Source: Bacteroidota bacterium | GTDB taxonomy: Bacteria > Bacteroidota > Bacteroidia > Chitinophagales > Saprospiraceae | Assembly: GCA_017858735.1 (NCBI GenBank) | Contig: JAFMBH010000006.1 | Coordinates: 1 to 64,000, forward strand | Reading direction: 5' to 3' | Length of the DNA: 64,000 nt | Shown here: positions 22,871-32,544 of the stretch, piece after piece | Layout of the letters: each line of letters begins with the position of its first letter | Numbering within the stretch: the first letter of the stretch is position 1 | Made by a program: the position numbers and the translations under genes | The notes under the pieces: generated by a model | Database searches by the model: none | What the model was told of the DNA's origin: nothing | The model's input: the letters and a program-made list of their open reading frames with translations, nothing else

Positions 22871-24208
22871 TTAGCGAATACGTGTAAGGACATTATATTT
22901 TTCTTCAATTTTTCCAAATGGAAATCTATCCTTAACCAATTTCCATTTCTGAAAAATCTCCTTATTACAGAGTTGTCCGATAGAACCTTCATGAACATGA
23001 GAAATTTTATTCCCTGGCACAAACTCATTTTTCTCTACCATTTCACCCACCTGTTTATAGGCATCTCTAAATGGAACACCCTCTAAAACGAGCTCGTTAA
23101 CCTTTTCAACCGTAAATAGATAAGCATATTTTGGATCATCCAGTAGATTATGGTGAATTTTCAACTGTGGCAAAACAAAAGCAATCATTTCCAGGCATTC
23201 CTTCATGTTATGAATGGCTGGAAAAATAACCTCCTTTAATAATTGAAAATCCCGGTGATAGCCAGCGGGAAGATTATTTATTAACAGGCTAACTTGCCCC
23301 GGCAGTGCCTGTAAAAGATTACATTTACCTCTTAACAATTCAAATACGTCCGGATTTTTTTTGTGCGGCATAATACTTGAGCCTGTGGTATATTCTTTTG
23401 GGAGGGTAAGAAAATGATAATTCTGGCTGGAATAAAGCACGACATCTGTTGAAAATTTACCTAAGGTAGTGGCGAGAGAAGCCAACGCAAAGGCGATAAA
23501 TAATTCCGATTTACCTCTTCCCATTTGGGCATGAATCACATTATAACTAAGGTCTTCAAAACCCAGCAATTCCGTTGTCATTTTTCTATTCAGGGGAAAG
23601 GAAGAACCATAGCCAGCTGCAGAGCCTAATGGATTATGGTTTACGATATTAAAAACACTTTCCAGTAGCAACAAATCTTCCGTTAGCGATTCAGCATAAG
23701 CACCAAACCAAAGGCCGAAAGAAGATACCATAGCAACCTGAAAATGGGTATAACCAGGCATTAGTACCTCCTTATGTTGTTCGCTTTGCTCTTGAAATCC
23801 ATGAAAAACGAGTTCCATAAGACGCACTATTTCCTGTAATTCAGCGCGAAAGAAAAGTCTTAAATCCACGAGCACCTGATCGTTCCTTGATCTGCCACTG
23901 TGTATTTTTTTTCCAATATCGCCCAAAGATTTTGTGAGCAACAGCTCAATTTGAGAATGGACATCCTCCACGTCGTCATCCATTTTGAAGAGACCCTTCT
24001 CAATATCCTGATAAATATTTTTCAAGGACGCGGAGAGTATATCCAATTCATTTTTTGAAATCAGCTGAATAGATTCCAGCATCTGGATATGAGCTAAAGA
24101 GCCAAGAACATCATATTTTGCCAAAAGCAGATCCATTTCTCTATCCATTCCTACGGTAAAGGCATCAATTTGTGGTTGAACTAAGAAGTCTTTTTCCCAA
24201 AGTTTCAT
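22871..24208 (-). CDS. argH: argininosuccinate lyase
   Basis: Last arginine step: splits argininosuccinate to arginine and fumarate. 445 residues. The fumarase/aspartase superfamily signature GSSIMPHKKNPD is present, as are the substrate segments HSGRSRNDQV and PGYTHFQVA. The catalytic Ser is in the GSSIMP loop. It starts 3 bases after the deacetylase stop. It is the seventh step-specific gene of the arginine operon and is followed by two genes of unrelated function. Confidence 0.95.
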   Translation of the reverse strand: MKLWEKDFLVQPQIDAFTVGMDREMDLLLAKYDVLGSLAHIQMLESIQLISKNELDILSASLKNIYQDIEKGLFKMDDDVEDVHSQIELLLTKSLGDIGKKIHSGRSRNDQVLVDLRLFFRAELQEIVRLMELVFHGFQEQSEQHKEVLMPGYTHFQVAMVSSFGLWFGAYAESLTEDLLLLESVFNIVNHNPLGSAAGYGSSFPLNRKMTTELLGFEDLSYNVIHAQMGRGKSELFIAFALASLATTLGKFSTDVVLYSSQNYHFLTLPKEYTTGSSIMPHKKNPDVFELLRGKCNLLQALPGQVSLLINNLPAGYHRDFQLLKEVIFPAIHNMKECLEMIAFVLPQLKIHHNLLDDPKYAYLFTVEKVNELVLEGVPFRDAYKQVGEMVEKNEFVPGNKISHVHEGSIGQLCNKEIFQKWKLVKDRFPFGKIEEKYNVLTRIR

Positions 24209-24211
24209 CCT

Positions 24212-25291
24212 TCAGATTTTAGGTATATGAATGCCGGTAATAATGGCATGATAAAGAGAGAGGCCATTCTCTATTTCATTTATTTTAATAAACTCATCGG
24301 CCGTATGAGATCGGGCTGAATCACCTACGCCCAGTTTTAAAGACGGGAAAGGCATCAAAGCCTGGTCTGAAAGGGTTGGTGATCCAAAAGGAATCAAGTT
24401 TAAATGCAGCCCGGATAGAACCAAAGGATGATCTAAGGAAATTCCGGAAGATTTGAGTCTGAAGGAACGTGCCTTCAAATCTGCTTTCACATGTTGTTTG
24501 AGTATTTCAAATACCTCCTCATTGGTATAAAGTTCATTGGTTCGAACATCTATGACAAAGGAGCATTGGTCAGGCACCACATTATGCTGGGTACCTGCAT
24601 TTATCTGGGTAACGGACAATTTAACGGGCCCTAAAAAGGCAGAAATTTTAGGGAAAGCGAAAGAATGAATAGATTCAATATCCTTCATCGCTTCATAGAT
24701 GGCATTGACCCCTTCATTTCTTGCTGCATGTCCAGATATTCCTTTTGACACTGCATCGACCACCATGAGGCCTTTTTCAGCCACGGCCAGCTGCATGGTA
24801 GTGGGTTCCCCCACGATGGCCATGTCGATGGGAGGTAGCAGGGGTAAAATAGAGGCAATGCCCCCACCTCCTGAAATTTCTTCTTCCGCCGTGGCAGCAA
24901 AAACGAGATTAACCTCTAAATGCTCTGAAGTTCTCAATTGAAGGAAAGTACAAAGCAGGCAAATCAGGGAAGCACCCGCGTCATTACTACCTAATCCAAA
25001 AATATTATCATCAACCCTTGTTGCCTCAAAGGGAGAAAAAGTCCAGCCGGACACAGGTTTAACGGTATCATGATGAGAATTGAGTAATAGCGTAGGTTTA
25101 TTTGGGTCCCAAACCGATGAAATAGCCCAAACATTATTCCCTGAACGAAATGGCTTAGCTCCCTGATTTTCAAGGCAATCAAAAAACCATTGAGCGGTCT
25201 GATCTTCCTCTTTTGAAAAGGAGGGAATTTGAATGATTTCCGACAACCATTTTACTGCATTTTCAAGAAATTCAGCCTTAGAGCTATTCAT
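24212..25291 (-). CDS. M20 deacylase of the arginine pathway (acyl-citrulline/ornithine deacylase)
   Basis: 359-residue M20 metallopeptidase-family enzyme. Zinc-site motifs are intact: LNSHHDTVKP, GLGSNDAGAS, AATAEEEISGGGG and VGEPT. In operons whose transcarbamylase acts on acylated ornithine, as here, this enzyme removes the acyl group from N-acyl-citrulline rather than from N-acetylornithine. Whether the acyl group is acetyl or succinyl is not readable from this gene; the transcarbamylase suggests succinyl. Its ATG overlaps the argB stop by one base, implying translational coupling. Often labelled argE. Confidence 0.9.
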   Translation of the reverse strand: MNSSKAEFLENAVKWLSEIIQIPSFSKEEDQTAQWFFDCLENQGAKPFRSGNNVWAISSVWDPNKPTLLLNSHHDTVKPVSGWTFSPFEATRVDDNIFGLGSNDAGASLICLLCTFLQLRTSEHLEVNLVFAATAEEEISGGGGIASILPLLPPIDMAIVGEPTTMQLAVAEKGLMVVDAVSKGISGHAARNEGVNAIYEAMKDIESIHSFAFPKISAFLGPVKLSVTQINAGTQHNVVPDQCSFVIDVRTNELYTNEEVFEILKQHVKADLKARSFRLKSSGISLDHPLVLSGLHLNLIPFGSPTLSDQALMPFPSLKLGVGDSARSHTADEFIKINEIENGLSLYHAIITGIHIPKI

Positions 25292-26064
25292 TATTTACAA
25301 ATATGAGTACCGCCGTTGGTGAGAAAAGAATCAGGACCACAAATAACGACTTTTGCGACACCATTTTCAATGGCATTGAATGCATTTTCCAATTTTGGAA
25401 TCATTCCAGCATGAAAATATCCCTTTTCGCGCCCCTCGATGAAGGCAGAACGATTAAGAGAGGGGATTACGGTACGAGGGTCAGAAACATCTTCGAGTAC
25501 GCCCGGCAATTCCAGGCAATAGGTGAGGTTTACCGAATAGATATTGGAAAGAGCAGTAGCCAGCGTAGAAGCGATAGTATCGGCATTGGTATTTAGTAAT
25601 TGCCCTTGCCCATCGTGGGTAACGGCGCAAAAGACCAGGGTCAAATCAATATTCATGAAATGGGATAAGGTTTGAACATTTACCGTTACCGGATCCCCTA
25701 CCCAACCAAAATCTACCTCTTTTACGGGTCGCTTTACCGAAAGAATGGCATTGGCATCTGCCCCGGATAATCCAAGCGCGGATAAACCTATTGAATGACA
25801 ATGTGCCACTATTTTTTTATTATACCAGCCGGCATACGTCATCACGGCAATTTCCAGGGAATCAGTATCAGTAATTCGTCTACCGTCAACAAAAACGGAG
25901 GGAATGCCCAATTTTTCAGCAAGAACGGTTGCTTTTTTGCCTCCTCCGTGAACGATTATTTTTCTTCCCTCTTTTTCTGAAAATGCACTTAAAACCGACG
26001 CCAGGACAATGTCATTGCTTAATACATTACCACCTATTTTAAGAATATGGAGCATTTCCTTCAT
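25291..26064 (-). CDS. argB: N-acetylglutamate kinase family (predicted N-acylglutamate kinase)
   Basis: Amino acid kinase-fold enzyme phosphorylating N-acylglutamate, second arginine step. 257 residues. Motifs: LKIGGNVLSN near the N-terminus, IVHGGGKKATVLAEKLG, and NTNADTIAST in the ATP region. The N-terminus is short, without the arginine-sensing helix of feedback-inhibited hexameric kinases, so strong direct arginine inhibition is not expected. It lies 12 bases after the transcarbamylase gene. By linkage to an acyl-ornithine transcarbamylase with Ala89 it may accept N-succinylglutamate. Confidence 0.92.
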   Translation of the reverse strand: MKEMLHILKIGGNVLSNDIVLASVLSAFSEKEGRKIIVHGGGKKATVLAEKLGIPSVFVDGRRITDTDSLEIAVMTYAGWYNKKIVAHCHSIGLSALGLSGADANAILSVKRPVKEVDFGWVGDPVTVNVQTLSHFMNIDLTLVFCAVTHDGQGQLLNTNADTIASTLATALSNIYSVNLTYCLELPGVLEDVSDPRTVIPSLNRSAFIEGREKGYFHAGMIPKLENAFNAIENGVAKVVICGPDSFLTNGGTHICK

Positions 26065-26076
26065 TCGGCAAGAGGT

Positions 26077-27018
26077 TTAACCTTTTAATAAATCGTACAA
26101 AACGGCTTGTGCAGCCCAGGTTCTATTATTTGCCTGAGCGATAACGATGGAATCGGGACCATTTATTACTTCGTCGGCGACGATAACATTTCTTCTAACG
26201 GGAAGGCAGTGCATAAATTTTGCCTTAGAAGTGAGCGCCATTTTTTCGGCAGTGATGGTCCAGGAAGGATCTTTTGACAGAATAGCTCCATAGTTTTCAA
26301 AGGAGGACCAGTTTTTTGCATAAATAAAATCGGCACCATCGAAGGCCTCATTTTGATTAGTCGTTACATAGGTATCGCCCATAAAATCGGGTGAAAGATG
26401 ATACCCTTCAGGATGGGTAACGACTACATCGACATTTGCGCGTCTCATCCATTCCACAAAAGAATTAGGAACAGCCTGTGGCAAAGCACGGGGATGGGGA
26501 GCCCATGAAAGGACCACCTTAGGCCTGTCTTTTTGTTTAAATTCCTCTATCGTTAGTAAATCGGCGAACGATTGAAGAGGATGACGGGTAGCTGATTCCA
26601 AACTAACTACAGGAACCGATGCATATTTTACGAAGGCAGAAATCACTTCCTCCTGATAATCTTTATCGCGTTGAACTAGGGAAGGAAAACTGCGAATGCC
26701 AATGACAGATGCGTATTGACTTACGACAGCGGCGGCTTCTTTTACATGTTCTGCGCTATTTCCATCCATAATGGCCCCATCCTCGAACTCAATTTTCCAT
26801 CCATTATCGGCATTCATGCTTATTACCTGCATACCAAGATTCAGACCAGCCTTTTCTGTACTAAGGCGGGTTCTCAAACTGGGATTAAAAAAAAGGAGGA
26901 CCAATGTTTTATTGACTCCGTATTGTCTGTAGTTTTCAGGTGATCCCTTGATATCTTTTGCCAAAGCTAATAATCGAATGATTTCGTTTACCTCTGGTGC
27001 GGCTATAAATGACTTCAT
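26077..27018 (-). CDS. argF': N-acyl-L-ornithine transcarbamylase, predicted N-succinylornithine type
   Basis: Carbamoylates N-acylornithine to N-acylcitrulline. 313 residues. Carbamoyl-phosphate loop FNPSLRTRLST, ATRHPLQSFADL, WAPHPRALPQAVPNSF and HCLPVRRN match the Xanthomonas/Bacteroides acyl-ornithine family, not ordinary OTCases, which have SMG and HCLP-x-H. Published work on that family showed that the residue equivalent to Glu92 of the Xanthomonas enzyme (Pro90 in Bacteroides fragilis) decides acetyl versus succinyl substrate. Here DGNSAEH places Ala89 at that site, and small residues there go with succinyl specificity. The start codon overlaps the argD stop by four bases. Confidence 0.93.
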   Translation of the reverse strand: MKSFIAAPEVNEIIRLLALAKDIKGSPENYRQYGVNKTLVLLFFNPSLRTRLSTEKAGLNLGMQVISMNADNGWKIEFEDGAIMDGNSAEHVKEAAAVVSQYASVIGIRSFPSLVQRDKDYQEEVISAFVKYASVPVVSLESATRHPLQSFADLLTIEEFKQKDRPKVVLSWAPHPRALPQAVPNSFVEWMRRANVDVVVTHPEGYHLSPDFMGDTYVTTNQNEAFDGADFIYAKNWSSFENYGAILSKDPSWTITAEKMALTSKAKFMHCLPVRRNVIVADEVINGPDSIVIAQANNRTWAAQAVLYDLLKG

Positions 27019-28172
27019 ACGGGAACAGATTGGGGGGTAGCATAGAGAACAGATTTAAATCCGTCCAATAATTGATCTATTTCATTTTCGCCAACCGACA
27101 AAGAAGGCAGAAGTCGTATGGTATTCGGGTCAGAGGAAGAGCCTGTAAAAATATGATTTTCCATCAGTAATTTCTTCCTTAGCGCTGCGGTATTATAATC
27201 GAATTCGATACCAATCATGAGACCCTCACCACGCACCTCAACCACACCGGGCAGGGCACTATTTTTCAATTCGTTTATCAATAACTGACCAGAAACTGCG
27301 GCATTTTCCATCAATTGTTCATCGCGAATAACTTCAAGAACAGCAATCCCAGCGGCGCAAGCCAGGTGGCTTCCACCAAAAGTAGTGCCTAAAAGGCCAT
27401 GTTTTGCTTTAAAACGGGGGTGTAACAATATACCTCCGATAGGAAAACCATTTCCCATGCCTTTTGCCATACTAATTATATCTGGTTGAATACCAGATTT
27501 TTGGAAAGCGAAGAAAGAACCACTTCTACCATAACCCGATTGTATTTCATCGAGGATCAGTATAGTATTTGAAGCCTGACAAAGCGTTGATATTTTTTGT
27601 AAGAAAGCGACGTCAGGAATGTGAATACCTCCAATTCCTTGAATGCCCTCGATGATAACGGCGGCGATATCATTATCTAAAAACGCATTGTCGATTGCGT
27701 CAAAATCATTTAACGGCAGATAAACCACCTCAAAGGTGCTGTTTATAGGTGCCTGAATACCTTTACTATCTGTTACATTCACGGCAGCCGACGTTCTGCC
27801 ATGGAAAGCCTTTTTAAAAGCGATAATTTTTTTTCGTCCATTTTCGAAAGAGGCCATTTTAAGGGCATTCTCATTCGCCTCGGCGCCAGAATTACATAGG
27901 AAAAGATGATAATCATGGCATCCACTAATTTCGCCAAGAAGCGTAGCCAATTCATTTTGCAAGGGATTTAGAATAGAATTGGAATAAAAAGCAATGGCAT
28001 TGAGTTGTTCGGCAATTTTTGAAATATAATGCGGATGGGAATGACCGATAGAAATGACGGCATGACCGCCATAGAAATCGAGATATTTGGTTCCTTTTTC
28101 ATCCCAAACATAAGATCCAAGACCTTTTACCGGGCAAATATCATAGAGAGGATAAACATCGAATAATTTCAT
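27015..28172 (-). CDS. argD: acylornithine aminotransferase
   Basis: Class III PLP aminotransferase, 385 residues, converting N-acylglutamate semialdehyde to N-acylornithine. Signature segments: YLDFYGGHAVISIGHSHP, NSGAEANENALKMA, FHGRTSAAVNVT, LDEIQSGYGRSG, and the PLP Lys in ISMAKGMGNGFPIGG. It lies 18 bases after argC and overlaps the next gene by four bases. Specificity for acetyl- or succinyl-ornithine cannot be judged from the residues I can place. Confidence 0.94.
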   Translation of the reverse strand: MKLFDVYPLYDICPVKGLGSYVWDEKGTKYLDFYGGHAVISIGHSHPHYISKIAEQLNAIAFYSNSILNPLQNELATLLGEISGCHDYHLFLCNSGAEANENALKMASFENGRKKIIAFKKAFHGRTSAAVNVTDSKGIQAPINSTFEVVYLPLNDFDAIDNAFLDNDIAAVIIEGIQGIGGIHIPDVAFLQKISTLCQASNTILILDEIQSGYGRSGSFFAFQKSGIQPDIISMAKGMGNGFPIGGILLHPRFKAKHGLLGTTFGGSHLACAAGIAVLEVIRDEQLMENAAVSGQLLINELKNSALPGVVEVRGEGLMIGIEFDYNTAALRKKLLMENHIFTGSSSDPNTIRLLPSLSVGENEIDQLLDGFKSVLYATPQSVPV

Positions 28173-28190
28173 ATCAAAAAATTAAAAGAT

Positions 28191-29147
28191 TTAAAAGGCG
28201 GTAGATTTAAGGTTCAGGCCTTCATTTTCAGGGTAACCGAACATAAGATTCATATTTTGCACTGCCTGGCCTGAGGCACCTTTGAGTAAATTATCAAGCA
28301 CGGAGATAATATGAACACATTTTCCTTGTTTTTTTACCTGTACCACACAATTATTGGTGTTAACGACCATTTTCAGGTGAGGATTAAGGTCCGTAACCTT
28401 TGTAAAGGGTTGGTTTTTATAATAGGAGGGAAACAGATCATCCAAATCTGCTTGCGATACATCTGATTCGAAGTAAATAGAAGCGAGTATACCTCTGGTA
28501 AAATCACCTCTCATGGGAATAAAATGCAGATCCTGATTAAAATCGGGTTGTAATTGCTTGAGGCTTCTTACTATTTCTGGAATATGTTGATGATCGAAGG
28601 CCTTATAAACCGAAATATTTGAAGAACGCCAACTAAAATGAGTGGTATCACTGAGCGCCTGACCGGCACCGGTAGAGCCAGTAATGGCATGAATATGTAT
28701 GGAATTATTCAGGAGATGATTTTCAGCAAAAGGCAGTAAAGCGAGTTGAATAGCCGAGGCAAAGCAACCTGGATTAGCGATTCTTTCAGCCGTTCTAATA
28801 TTTTCATGATTCAGCTCTGGTAAACCGTAAATAAAAGAGGAATCCAATCTGAAATCATTTCCCAAATCGATACATTTTACGCCATTGGGAATCACATTTT
28901 CCTGCATAAATATGGACGATTTGCCATGCCCCATGCATAAGAAAATGACGTCGGCCAATAGCGGAGGATTGGATAAAAAATACAGGTCTTTCAGTTGAAA
29001 GAGATCATCATGTACTGCGGCGACCGATTTACCTGCCTGGGAATTACTTTGTGCAAAGGCAATGACCACTTTAGGATGAAAAGCGAGCAATCGCAACAAC
29101 TCACCACCTGTATAACCGCCTGCACCAATAACACCAACTTTAATCAT
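28191..29147 (-). CDS. argC: N-acyl-gamma-glutamyl-phosphate reductase
   Basis: NADPH-dependent reduction of N-acylglutamyl phosphate, third step. 318 residues. The N-terminal Rossmann motif is VGVIGAGGYTGGELLRLL. The catalytic Cys128 lies in NPGCFASAIQLALLP. The C-terminus has NNCVVQVKKQGKCVHI and DNLLKGASGQAVQNMN, typical of the short ArgC type. It begins 3 bases after the argG stop. Confidence 0.95.
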   Translation of the reverse strand: MIKVGVIGAGGYTGGELLRLLAFHPKVVIAFAQSNSQAGKSVAAVHDDLFQLKDLYFLSNPPLLADVIFLCMGHGKSSIFMQENVIPNGVKCIDLGNDFRLDSSFIYGLPELNHENIRTAERIANPGCFASAIQLALLPFAENHLLNNSIHIHAITGSTGAGQALSDTTHFSWRSSNISVYKAFDHQHIPEIVRSLKQLQPDFNQDLHFIPMRGDFTRGILASIYFESDVSQADLDDLFPSYYKNQPFTKVTDLNPHLKMVVNTNNCVVQVKKQGKCVHIISVLDNLLKGASGQAVQNMNLMFGYPENEGLNLKSTAF

Positions 29148-29150
29148 AAT

Positions 29151-30359
29151 TTAGGAAAGCTTTTGTTGTTTTGAGAGCACCTCGAAAAAAATCCTTGACT
29201 GATTACCTGCAATTTTGGTAAAGCCCTTTACATCTTCGCCGGACCAACCTTTATTCATTTCGCCATAGTGTCCAAACTCAGGGTTCATCAGATCAAAATC
29301 GGAATGTATGCCTTCGAGAACGAAGCGATAAGGGTAAAGAGTAAGGGTTACGGTACCGGAAACATGCGACTGCGTATCTTCGAGGAAGTGTTCAATATTT
29401 CTCATAACGGGATCTAAGAACTGCCCTTCATGAAGGAGCATACCATACCAATTTGCCAATTGTTCCTTCCAGTATTGCTGCCATTTGGTGAGGGTATGTT
29501 TTTCCAGCAGGTGATGACTTTTCAAAATGATAAGTGGAGCGGCTGCTTCAAAGCCAACACGACCTTTTATACCAATGATGGTATCACCGACGTGAATATC
29601 CCTTCCGATAGCAAAAGGTTCTGCCATCATTTGCAGGGCATGGATAGCTTCGAGAGAAGTGTCAAAAACCTTACCATCGACGCCAACCAATTCACCTTTA
29701 GCATATTGCAAGGATACGGAAACAGGATTGGAAGCGGTAAGCGGAGAGGGATAAGCCTCTTCGGGTAATCCTTTATGAGAGGTTAGGGTTTCGACCCCAC
29801 CGACACTGGTACCCCAGAGACCTTTATTAACGGAATATTTGGCTTTTTCCCAATTCCAATTAAAACCCCAGGCGATTAATTTATCTATTTCGGTTTGCCT
29901 TGCCAATTTCATATCCCTAATAGGCGTAATGATTTCAAGATCATGGCCCAGAATTTGAAAGGCAATATCAAAGCGCACCTGATCATTTCCAGCTCCTGTT
30001 GAACCATGAGCGACCGCCTGAGCGTTTATTTCAGTGGCATATTTAGCTGTTTCAATGGCTTGAAACATTCTTTCAGCACTTACTGACAGCGGATAAGTAT
30101 TATTTCTCAATACATTTCCAAAAATGAGATATCGAATACATTGAGAATAAAAATCCTGCTGAGCATCTACTATTTTAAACGAAGCTGCCCCCAACTGAAA
30201 AGCTCTTTCCTCTAAGCGAGCAGCGTCATCGGCGGTAAATCCGCCGGTATTGACTGTAATGGCATGCACCTCACAATTATTTTCTCTTGTTAGCCATGGA
30301 ATACAGAAAGAAGTATCCAAACCACCACTGTAGGCTAAAACGACCTTTTTTTTACTCAT
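29151..30359 (-). CDS. argG: argininosuccinate synthase
   Basis: ATP-dependent condensation of citrulline and aspartate. 402 residues. The PP-loop is AYSGGLDTSF at residues 9-18; AHGSTGAGNDQVRFD and the ATP-site region PIRDMKLAR are also present. Its start overlaps the GNAT gene stop by four bases (ATGA), which suggests coupled translation. It precedes the early-step genes in the operon, an order common in Bacteroidota. Confidence 0.95.
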   Translation of the reverse strand: MSKKKVVLAYSGGLDTSFCIPWLTRENNCEVHAITVNTGGFTADDAARLEERAFQLGAASFKIVDAQQDFYSQCIRYLIFGNVLRNNTYPLSVSAERMFQAIETAKYATEINAQAVAHGSTGAGNDQVRFDIAFQILGHDLEIITPIRDMKLARQTEIDKLIAWGFNWNWEKAKYSVNKGLWGTSVGGVETLTSHKGLPEEAYPSPLTASNPVSVSLQYAKGELVGVDGKVFDTSLEAIHALQMMAEPFAIGRDIHVGDTIIGIKGRVGFEAAAPLIILKSHHLLEKHTLTKWQQYWKEQLANWYGMLLHEGQFLDPVMRNIEHFLEDTQSHVSGTVTLTLYPYRFVLEGIHSDFDLMNPEFGHYGEMNKGWSGEDVKGFTKIAGNQSRIFFEVLSKQQKLS

Positions 30360-30937
30360 TTATTCTCGACGATTAGATGTGTTAAATTGAGCGTCATTTG
30401 CTCTTCTTCCACCTTTGAGGGCGCTAACATAGCGGTACACAGGCACATTCTTCTCTCATTTCTTACCAGAATGTCATAATTTGGACAACTTTTACAACCA
30501 GCCCAAAACGCATCATCCTGAGTTAGTTCGGAAAAAGTTACGGGTTTGTAGCCCAATTCCGTATTAATTTTCATTACAGCCAGGCTCGTAGTGATACCAA
30601 AGACTTTAGCTTCGGGAAATTTATCTCTGGCAAGATTAAAAACTTTACGTTTGATTTCTCTGGCAAGTCCCGATTTTCTATAATCCGGATGTACGACTAG
30701 GCCTGAATTAACAACATACCTGTTATGACTCCAAATTTCCACGTAACAGAAACCTACCAGCACGTCACCATCAAAAGCAACTACAGCATTACCCGCTTCC
30801 ATTTTGGCTCGAATATACTCTGGTTTGCGAGCTGCAATACCTGTTCCTCTTGCTTTTGCTGATTCTGCTATTAAGAGGCAAACATTTTCTGCATATTGCA
30901 CATGATCTGCCGACGACACTAAAACCTTTAAATCCAT
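30356..30937 (-). CDS. GNAT acyltransferase, predicted N-acyl(succinyl)glutamate synthase
   Basis: 193 residues, first gene of the arginine operon. The acetyl-CoA-binding core is GLVVHPDYRKSGLAREIKRK, followed by SLAVMKINTELGYKPV. The C-terminal part carries a Cys pattern unusual for GNATs: Cys148 and Cys151 (GCKSC), then Cys165 and Cys167 (MCLC). This is the protein type linked in Bacteroides to the missing first step of arginine synthesis, where the acyl donor is thought to be succinyl-CoA. With Ala89 in the transcarbamylase the inference here is N-succinylglutamate synthesis; acetyl transfer is the alternative. No classical argA or argJ is seen. Confidence 0.85.
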   Translation of the reverse strand: MDLKVLVSSADHVQYAENVCLLIAESAKARGTGIAARKPEYIRAKMEAGNAVVAFDGDVLVGFCYVEIWSHNRYVVNSGLVVHPDYRKSGLAREIKRKVFNLARDKFPEAKVFGITTSLAVMKINTELGYKPVTFSELTQDDAFWAGCKSCPNYDILVRNERRMCLCTAMLAPSKVEEEQMTLNLTHLIVENK

Positions 30938-30953
30938 GTCAGGAGATTAAGTT

Positions 30954-31064
30954 TTAAAAAAATAGTATTAATATCTTGGTTAGGGAATGGGCAGAAATAC
31001 ACTGCCTGGGGTGGAAGTTAATATAATACGCCCTTAGGGGCGCGGCAAGTTGCGGACGCGACAT
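30954..31064 (-). CDS. 36-codon leader ORF upstream of the arginine operon
   Basis: Not previously recognisable as a gene by size. ATG at 31064-31062, stop TAA at 30956-30954, 16 bases before the GNAT start. The peptide starts MSRPQLAAPLRAYYINFHPR and has Arg at positions 3, 11 and 20, and three His. Within it lie two hairpins on the minus strand: CGCCC-CTAA-GGGCG (31042-31029) and GGCAG, 7 bases, CTGCC (31006-30990). A good promoter ends at 31108, which would put the ATG about 35 bases from the transcript start. No Shine-Dalgarno is obvious. A role as an attenuator peptide is inference; the alternative is a structured leader with a chance frame. Confidence 0.45.
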   Translation of the reverse strand: MSRPQLAAPLRAYYINFHPRQCISAHSLTKILILFF

Positions 31065-31107
31065 GGAAAAATAACCTGAACTTCCCTTGTTTTTTTCATA
31101 ATGGGTG

Positions 31108-31138
31108 CAAATATAATAAAGCAAAACGAATAATTCAA
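31108..31138 (-). promoter_or_regulatory. promoter of the arginine operon
   Basis: On the minus strand TTG (31138-31136), a 20-base spacer, then TATATTTG (31115-31108), a good match to the Bacteroidota -33/-7 promoter. Predicted start near 31100, giving a structured leader of about 160 bases before the GNAT ATG. No ArgR-type palindrome was identified nearby. Confidence 0.7.
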
Positions 31139-31188
31139 GTATTATGTTTCCATTAACAGAAATATAACGCCCCTTCAGAAGCTATACC

Positions 31189-32544
31189 TTAATTCTCTCC
31201 CAACTTCCTCATTCTTATTCCGTAAAAAACAAGGTATGCATAAGCGATGGCTGGAATAAGGAAAGAATACTTTACCCCAACACTGGGAATATCAGCAAAT
31301 AAACCTTGTAATGGTGGAATAATGGCTCCCCCTGCAATCATCATGATCAAAACAGAAGAACCGACGCTCGTATAAGCGCCTAATTTTTCAATAGCCAGGG
31401 TGAAAATATTTGACCACATGATGGAATTAAAGAGGCCAATGCCTAAAATAGACCAAAGAGCTACTTGACCTTGCGTATTCATGGTAACAACCAATAGAAT
31501 GATATTCATGAGAGCAAAGACAGAAAGTAATCGGGATGGAATGCCTTTTCCAAATTGAAAAGCAACAAAATTAAGGATCATAACGGCTAAAAATCCAAAG
31601 GAAAGCATTGGGTCAGCGCCGTAAGAAGTAGAGGCAATCCAGGAGACACCGAAGGCAATCAGAGGAAAAAGGATCATGAGGCCCAATTTATTTTTATCCC
31701 CTTGTTTTGATAAAGAAACAGCGCCCATAAATCGACCCACCATGGCACCGCCCCAATAAAATGCAACATAGGAACCAGCGGTTTTCATTTCTAAATTGAG
31801 TAAACTGTCTTGCTTTAGGTATTCAACCATAAAACTTCCCACCGCTATTTCTGATCCAACATAGCAGAAAATAGCTATAGCACCCAGATAAAGCTGAGGA
31901 TATTGCCATAAACTAAAGCCATGACTATGATTGGTTTCCTCTGTCTGAATAGCGGGCAAGGAAAGTCTGCTGAAAATAAAAGCGATAATAAATAGTATGA
32001 TTGACATGACAACGTAAGGCAAACGAACAGTGGACACATCTACTTTATCTGTATTTTGCAAAATCAGTAATGCCCCAAGTAATGGCGCTATAGTGTGTCC
32101 AAGGGAATTAAAACCCTGTGCTAAATTTAGACGACTAGCCGCAGTATTTTCAGGCCCGAGTACGGCAACATAAGGATTAGCAGCCACTTGTAAAATAGTT
32201 ATGCCACTTGCTAAGATGAATAATCCAAGTAAAAATACACTATATTCCTGAACTATTGAAGCAGGGTAAAAGGTAAGACAGCCAAAACCCATTAAAGTTA
32301 ATCCTAATACAATGCCGCCCTTGTACCCCATTTTTTTAATCAGATAACCCGCGGGAATACTCATTAAAAAATAGGCGCCAAAAAAGAAAAACTGAATAAG
32401 CTGAGCTTGCCAATGCTTTAAATCAAATACCGCTTTTAAATGCGGCACTAAAATATCATTTAAGGAAGTTAACAATCCCCAAAGAAAAAATAAAACAGTT
32501 AGTATGATAAATGAAAATTTGGCAGAAGAAGGCGTTGTTTGCAT
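31189..32544 (-). CDS. FucP/GluP-family sugar MFS transporter
   Basis: 451 residues with twelve membrane segments. The N-terminal region (LFFLWGLLTSLNDILVPHLK) and GYLIKKMGYKGG match the fucose/glucose-galactose:H+ symporter branch of the major facilitator superfamily. The likely substrate is a hexose taken up from the periplasm; the exact sugar is unclear. The gene is upstream of, but transcribed apart from, the arginine operon, whose promoter starts about 50 bases after its stop. It could import sugars released by the SusCD system at the end of the window, but nothing in the DNA links them. Confidence 0.88.
   Translation of the reverse strand: MQTTPSSAKFSFIILTVLFFLWGLLTSLNDILVPHLKAVFDLKHWQAQLIQFFFFGAYFLMSIPAGYLIKKMGYKGGIVLGLTLMGFGCLTFYPASIVQEYSVFLLGLFILASGITILQVAANPYVAVLGPENTAASRLNLAQGFNSLGHTIAPLLGALLILQNTDKVDVSTVRLPYVVMSIILFIIAFIFSRLSLPAIQTEETNHSHGFSLWQYPQLYLGAIAIFCYVGSEIAVGSFMVEYLKQDSLLNLEMKTAGSYVAFYWGGAMVGRFMGAVSLSKQGDKNKLGLMILFPLIAFGVSWIASTSYGADPMLSFGFLAVMILNFVAFQFGKGIPSRLLSVFALMNIILLVVTMNTQGQVALWSILGIGLFNSIMWSNIFTLAIEKLGAYTSVGSSVLIMMIAGGAIIPPLQGLFADIPSVGVKYSFLIPAIAYAYLVFYGIRMRKLGEN

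Follow-up and report, generated by a model that had tools for sequence, protein, structure and literature searches.

The arginine operon in the window (the whole stretch of 64,000 nucleotides that was analysed) is preceded on the minus strand by a 21-codon open reading frame at 31099-31034, which we consider, with a probability of about 0.8, to encode an arginine leader peptide acting as a sensor. This tiny gene for a 21-residue peptide probably works through its Arg codons, which would let the ribosome report a shortage of arginine, and the reading of arginine supply by a leader peptide is well supported by the upstream regions of related genomes. Genome comparison establishes the leader ORF, its Arg content and the fact that ArgR is undetectable; carried out class-wide, it points to a control of the arginine operon other than ArgR. 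It also corrects the reading of the window leader, which lies in another frame than the 36-codon ORF singled out by a sequence-only reading of the same region. The features concerned are the following.

31108 to 31138, minus strand: predicted operon promoter, consisting of TTG at 31138-31136 (-33 region) and TATATTTG at 31115-31108 (-7 box TAnnTTTG), recognised from sequence
31034 to 31099, minus strand: leader ORF MKKTREVQVIFPCRVRNLPRP-stop, 21 codons and TAA, recognised by its conservation in the genus and by Arg-ending ORFs at the same place in relatives
30954 to 31064, minus strand: 36-codon ORF of the sequence-only reading, judged to be a chance ORF (not conserved in the genus, not rare in shuffles)
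31028 to 31043, minus strand: hairpin 1, GCGCCC(CTAA)GGGCGT, with the leader TAA in its loop; relatives have other stems at this place
30990 to 31006, minus strand: hairpin 2, GGCAG(TGTATTT)CTGCC; a hairpin at this place is above chance across the family
30938 to 30989, minus strand: pyrimidine-rich, G-poor spacer (T 20, A 18, C 12, G 2), by its composition a candidate Rho-binding stretch
30356 to 30937, minus strand: GNAT-family acetyltransferase, first gene of the operon (Pfam PF00583)
22871 to 30359, minus strand: remainder of the operon, argG to argH (best NCBIfam matches and ORFs)

The operon follows the order GNAT-argG-argC-argD-N-acetylornithine carbamoyltransferase-argB-argE-like-argH, and this gene content therefore makes arginine the right context for the leader. 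The NCBIfam scores of argG, argD and the argE-like protein fall below the curated cut-offs, those of the other operon proteins above them. The GNAT protein matches general GNAT models only, and its cysteines 20, 64, 148, 151, 165 and 167 are kept in all 11 aligned relatives; judging from its position in the operon, it may perhaps, as a guess, provide the acylglutamate-making step. A GNAT match was obtained in 72 of 150 family genomes, one of the matches being weak.

The start, the stop and the length of the leader ORF are unchanged, with four Arg each time, in all seven genomes of the genus and in the named record L118, and the genus variants that have Lys instead of Arg5 carry Arg at 13 or 17. 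The end of the leader falls inside hairpin 1, whose loop contains the TAA at 31036-31034. Taken by itself the window leader is weak, with four Arg in 21 codons and none of them adjacent, and 63 of 5000 shuffles of the window intergenic region contained an ATG ORF whose nine final codons included three or more Arg (p about 0.013). This rarity is modest alone, and the weight for the leader therefore comes from the relatives.

Upstream regions of GNAT genes in the family contain short ORFs that end in runs of Arg, often as ...CGT CGT CGC CCT TAG GGGCG, with a hairpin lying over the terminal codons and the stop. For each of 174 non-redundant regions, out of 197, the highest number of Arg within the final 12 codons of any short ATG ORF was determined; its mean was 3.47, versus 0.91 in dinucleotide shuffles (Z 38); Pro came second after Arg in the enrichment at ORF ends (Z 8.9), every other residue remaining at Z 3 or below. 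At least four Arg in the last 12 codons were present in 97 of the 174 regions, 1.7 being expected. All six Arg codons are used (CGC 198, CGT 125, AGG 73, CGA 54, CGG 35, AGA 24), and therefore it is the amino acid that is kept, not one DNA motif. The general hallmarks of a leader peptide are thus present: codons for the end product recur regardless of the synonymous codon, and frame, start and stop are conserved.

A second rule (ATG start, 320 nt, three or more Arg among the nine final codons) was applied to four sets that overlap partly, as some of the named records are the same genomes as G-labelled ones. Leaders were recovered in 43 of 70 family loci (2.1 expected), 29 of 47 order/class loci (1.2 expected), 61 of 80 named records (2.4 expected) and 37 of 80 further class loci (2.8 expected), this ATG test showing no leader in the remaining 27, 18, 19 and 43 loci, respectively. 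Some of these apparent non-leader loci have a match farther up, as in G037 (the genome of L033), at about 330 nt upstream, and some may use other starts. Named records with Arg leaders include Maribacter, Zobellia, Cellulophaga, Winogradskyella, Mucilaginibacter, Balneolaceae and Rhodothermia, the last two being placed outside the class Bacteroidia. The leader-end motif CGYCGYCGCCCNTARGGGCG has eight exact matches in the 150 family genomes, all eight upstream of GNAT; with one or two mismatches the matches are mostly elsewhere and the reversed control also yields many, so that these are uninformative.

The family loci derive from 70 of the 72 matching genomes (G019 and the weak G144 were excluded). 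A further GNAT search, with 80 matching, contributed 20 new loci (L071-L090, of which L076 and L084 repeat L041 and L050), and the class search, with 123 matching, contributed 30 loci (3 repeats), 80 further ones and G080 (equal to L054), with G191, G648, three interrupted by internal stops and seven that matched only weakly left out. The 174 regions and the sets of 102, 99 and 155 leaders were made non-redundant.

Bacterial arginine operons are commonly explained by ArgR. A search for ArgR (TIGR01529), which was positive in 9 of 14 control genomes, gave no match in 150 family genomes, neither in this one nor in the 149 others searched, although a very divergent ArgR could be missed; this agrees with the earlier remark that no ArgR site is obvious in the region. 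The search of 345 class genomes gave 15 matches; 13 were strong, but only 3 exceeded the curated cut-off, so the model is not fully sensitive in the class. ArgR repression resembles the proposed leader in that it controls arginine operons and in that argR holds the place before GNAT in some class genomes, and differs from it in being undetected in the family. GNAT is also present in nine of the 13 strongly matching genomes, and in all nine argR is located upstream of it and on the same strand, with 47-146 nt between the matched stretches. The genomes with argR directly before GNAT are G351, G391, G424, G455, G485, G514, G564, G628 and G648. Under a loose leader test (ATG, GTG or TTG start; 400 nt), an Arg leader was found in 41 of 72 ArgR-negative further class loci and in 2 of 8 ArgR loci, one of the latter lying inside the argR stretch and the other being a 13-codon GTG ORF. 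Genome G480 has a weak partial ArgR match (25 bits), and its locus L117 has a leader.

The two hairpins that had been pointed out from the sequence alone are present, at 31043-31028 (GCGCCC/GGGCGT) and 31006-30990 (GGCAG/CTGCC), and both are kept within the genus. In relatives the stem of hairpin 1 is mostly CGCCC/GGGCG, being replaced by GACCC/GGGTC in L050, L054 and L065 and by GGACC/GGTCC in L062, L063 and L068. At the place of hairpin 2, 51 of 54 loci have a hairpin that scores above the average of its shuffles (stem score 15.0 vs 9.9, p 1e-10); in a few of these 54 loci hairpin 1 is doubtful. The stretch behind the leader had a mean energy z-score of -1.18 (42 loci), but such scores were dropped because a control stretch was nearly as low (-0.85, 20 loci), and the stem-score test was used instead. 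RNAalifold on MAFFT alignments of the downstream modules found 4 pairs in every run, owing to unequal lengths of spacers and bulges, and hairpin 2 was taken from the stems of single sequences. A trp-like alternative pairing was at chance level in the 54 loci (8.1 vs 7.7, 27 of 54 above shuffles, p 0.058), and the window showed no such pairing. Mutually exclusive C:D and D:E pairing appeared convincing by eye (L022, L010) but was at chance once the spacer was shuffled with hairpin 2 fixed.

The second hairpin has a characteristic tip in 41 of the 197 loci (L096 to L194), namely AGGTGNGTCC in 38, AGATGTGTTC in 2 and TGGTGTGTCC in 1. The named members of these 41 loci are Flavobacteriaceae, and family f75 is Flavobacteriaceae by likeness to named records. 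The pattern AGGTGNGTCCRRTTC has 19 matches in 60 f75 genomes, 18 of them situated 54-109 nt upstream of GNAT; the reversed control pattern has none. No Rfam match was obtained for the AGGTGNGTCC hairpin at this place in the 7 such loci searched. The same tip after an Arg leader was also observed in L267-L285. A reading of the AGGTGA of the f75 hairpin as a Shine-Dalgarno sequence was set aside because L117 and L189 have AGATGTGTTC, with the pair kept as A-U. The sensing part (Arg codons, shared) appears separable from the output part, made of RNA modules that differ by family.

Leaders of histidine operons were used as a control. Out of 36 hisG-bearing genomes 30 loci were taken and 28 used, two having run off the contig; His leaders (at least three His) are present in 19 of these 28 regions, and an Arg-type ORF, by the second rule, in one. 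Canonical intrinsic terminators follow 13 of the 19 His leaders (0.23 expected) versus 7 of 99 Arg leaders (2.0 expected), suggesting that the output of the Arg leaders is probably not the classical one. With a slightly different terminator rule, 15 of 155 Arg leaders were positive, 7 of them inside the ORF. T-tract terminator-like hairpins within the leader ORF, with the stem ending 40-42 nt before the stop, were observed in L077, L079, L115, L188, L300 and L312. In the window, the only terminator-like match is a weak one at hairpin 1 (2 such in the region, 0.5 expected), and an intrinsic terminator sought in the spacer at 30938-30989 was not found there. Taken with the antiterminator pairing, which is not above chance in the 54 loci, this leaves the window without the terminator and antiterminator pair of the classical trp and his type. 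The his operon of this genome (L228, G000:C162:10000-13000) has the His leader MINIAFHIGHHHYVLLCSVG followed, by eye, by a strong intrinsic terminator; this leader lies closely behind a tRNA-Phe gene.

The last 60 nt behind the Arg leaders are rich in C and poor in G (0.222 and 0.113, mean of 102 loci), compared with 0.165 and 0.177 for his, and the window spacer has 12 C and 2 G in 52 nt; 24 other upstream segments of the window also have slightly more C than G (0.159/0.129). Because of this RNA composition and for lack of alternatives, Rho is ranked first among the possible outputs of the arginine leader, an assignment which we put forward tentatively and at slightly less than even odds.

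A promoter is predicted, from sequence, directly upstream of the leader ORF. The sequence-only reading had placed a consensus promoter here, and the sigma70-like TTGAAT-17-TATATT at 31138-31110 is indeed present, but it is no evidence by itself because the 501-nt region has 2 such matches with 1.4 expected. What had been overlooked, besides the conserved ORF in the other frame, is the Bacteroidota box TATATTTG, which ends 8 nt before the leader ATG. Of 102 loci, 53 have TAnnTTTG no more than 35 nt ahead of the leader ATG, versus 6% of random 38-nt windows, and the gap between box and ATG is 4-8 nt in 44 of these 53. The Bacteroidota promoter consensus is TAnnTTTG with TTTG near -33 (PMC7366714), and a start a few nucleotides past TATATTTG, as this consensus implies, would have the leader ORF begin at or near the 5' end, its ATG probably lying within a few nucleotides of the transcript start. 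If transcription does start just past the box, such a position would be unusual, given that about 3.7% of the 5' UTRs of Bacteroides thetaiotaomicron are described as shorter than 10 nt (PMC7366714) and 5.5% of the examined mRNAs of Flavobacterium psychrophilum as leaderless (PMC9723704).

From these features the following sequence of events can be proposed. A ribosome would begin to translate 31099-31034 very close to the 5' end of the mRNA. Under a shortage of charged tRNA-Arg it would stall on Arg 14, 16 and 20 and thereby cover hairpin 1, and transcription would continue into GNAT-argG-C-D-F'-B-E-H, this being the presumed sign of the response. When arginine is plentiful, the ribosome would reach the TAA in hairpin 1 and leave, so that hairpin 1 could close; the C-rich, G-poor RNA behind the leader would be exposed and transcription would end early, most likely through Rho. 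Extended to much of Bacteroidota, the proposal is that an Arg leader reading the charging of tRNA-Arg replaces ArgR before the GNAT-led operon, that its output is non-intrinsic (Rho, or some other factor that recognises an RNA hairpin, a possibility to which the AGGTGNGTCC hairpin of Flavobacteriaceae points) and that some Flavobacteriaceae stack two leaders; in this wide form we hold it to be possible, though a little less probable than its opposite.

The same Arg leader could act through other outputs. Intrinsic termination of the trp/his type, in which hairpin 1, an antiterminator and hairpin 2 would form a switch, is consistent with the conservation of both hairpins, with the weak terminator-like match at hairpin 1 of the window and with individual relatives, such as L085, whose terminator TGACTACT(TATGC)AGTAGTCG is followed by TTTTT and has its stem end 37 nt past the stop, and L338, with a good terminator 59 nt past the leader stop. 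It is nevertheless unlikely, as hairpin 2 of the window has no T tract, canonical terminators are far rarer behind Arg than behind His leaders, and the mutually exclusive pairing does not rise above chance. Moreover, the strong terminator of its own his leader indicates that the organism seems to use T-tract terminators where the mechanism is intrinsic attenuation. A control of GNAT translation, by RNA refolding that frees or hides the start, or of mRNA stability is rather improbable as well. In favour of it, 16 of 18 f75 loci have the tip of the second hairpin at a rather fixed distance from the GNAT ATG, 54-63 nt, but the predicted mean unpaired fraction of the GNAT start is 0.547 with the ribosome stalled versus 0.542 with the ribosome at the stop, and the predicted difference in openness exceeds 0.15 in 3 of 102 loci, the window not being one of them.

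Other readings concern the sensor itself. TnaC ends in Arg-Pro-stop, and free arginine might hold the ribosome at an Arg-Pro-stop of the leader as tryptophan does on TnaC, an idea that finds some ground in the fact that more leaders end in Pro than in any other residue (46 of 170). The remaining C-termini vary, however (R 36, A 18, V 16, I 13, F 10 and others of the 170), the N-terminal parts look unrelated between lineages by eye, the Pro codon belongs to the CCC arm of hairpin 1 and a biosynthetic operon needs the opposite sign, all of which makes a nascent-peptide sensor very unlikely; R23 of TnaC is mentioned in PMC8429421. The 36-codon ORF, for its part, exists as described (31064-30954, Arg at 3, 11 and 20), with the GNAT start at 30937 lying 16 nt past its stop, and it is open in the window together with the hairpins. 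It is not kept in the six other genus genomes, though, where its frame has 38, 45, 45, 39 (frameshift) and 45 codons and, in the sixth, no ATG: L266 has ACG instead, and so does the named record L118. Loss of the ORF in close relatives was among the outcomes that the sequence-only reading had named as refuting it, and for this ORF that outcome is what was observed. Neither is it rare: of 3000 dinucleotide shuffles of the 251-nt intergenic region, 404 contained an ATG ORF of at least 36 codons, and 179 contained one that also had at least three Arg. As to a ligand-binding RNA, the window has no Rfam match at gathering score, in line with the earlier failure to recognise a known riboswitch, and at E up to 5 the leader region (30600-31400) gave only psbNH at 31155-31199, upstream of the promoter, with 12.3 bits against a gathering score of 45. 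The same search in 12 relatives produced three sub-threshold matches, of which one, in L143 (1309-1362), lies upstream of the gene on the opposite strand and scores 28.1 bits vs 55. The 36-codon ORF and a ligand-binding RNA are thus both extremely improbable as the functional element; the broader suggestion of a translated element responding to arginine is strongly supported by the comparison, by way of the ORF at 31099-31034.

Leader-peptide (ribosome-mediated) attenuation is known for his, trp, leu and similar operons, and in Escherichia coli translation of the short ORF TnaC, which senses tryptophan, decides premature Rho termination. With the former the arginine leader shares a short promoter-proximal ORF, codons for the end product and a hairpin over the last codons and the stop, and His leaders of this type occur in the same class and in this genome. 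It differs in the amino acid, in having no intrinsic terminator in the window and most relatives, in having no supported antiterminator and in an ORF that is probably nearly leaderless. It would thus act like leader-peptide attenuation and yet fails two defining features, and it is therefore set apart from the classical intrinsic-terminator type. Within the same phylum, strong clues for leader-peptide attenuation upstream of amino-acid operons have been presented for Flavobacterium psychrophilum (PMC9723704); the relevant section of that paper has pheA and hisG among the genes named, not arginine, which its main text mentions once, for cyanophycin. The rbfL leader of Staphylococcus aureus (PMC13009471) also senses arginine shortage through Arg codons, but its two Arg codons (AGA, AGG) are read by a scarce tRNA, and it acts on the translation of a biofilm regulator, whose ribosome-binding site it covers, so that stalling lowers expression. 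Arginine codons and the arginine level likewise matter in the speF leader of Salmonella, which in contrast controls ornithine decarboxylase and polyamine synthesis, not an arginine operon (PMC6386406). In toiL and other uORFs of Escherichia coli, translation of a short ORF decides premature Rho termination as proposed here, but these sense ribosome-targeting antibiotics and Rho has been shown for them (PMC12121999), whereas in our case it is deduced. Among the matches listed in a search of open-licence PMC papers, none concerned an arginine leader peptide in Bacteroidota.

Other recurrent elements were observed around the leaders. The motif [AT]CATAT lies within the leader ORF in 25 of 41 family loci (2.4 expected; e.g. 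L009, L010, L013, L036, L039). In 18 of these 25 its distance from the ATG is 15-18 nt, it occurs in all three frames, and none was seen in the sequences of the genus. Within 45 nt past the leader stop it is found in 13 of 41 loci (3.5 expected), 7 times at 12-13 nt and 4 times at 1 nt. Finally, two Arg-ending leader ORFs stand in tandem before GNAT in 22 of 127 loci, by a loose rule that admits chance ORFs, the second ORF often being without an ATG start; tandem loci include L096, L106, L117, L141, L150, L154, L159, L160, L162, L166, L169, L172, L177, L180 and others.
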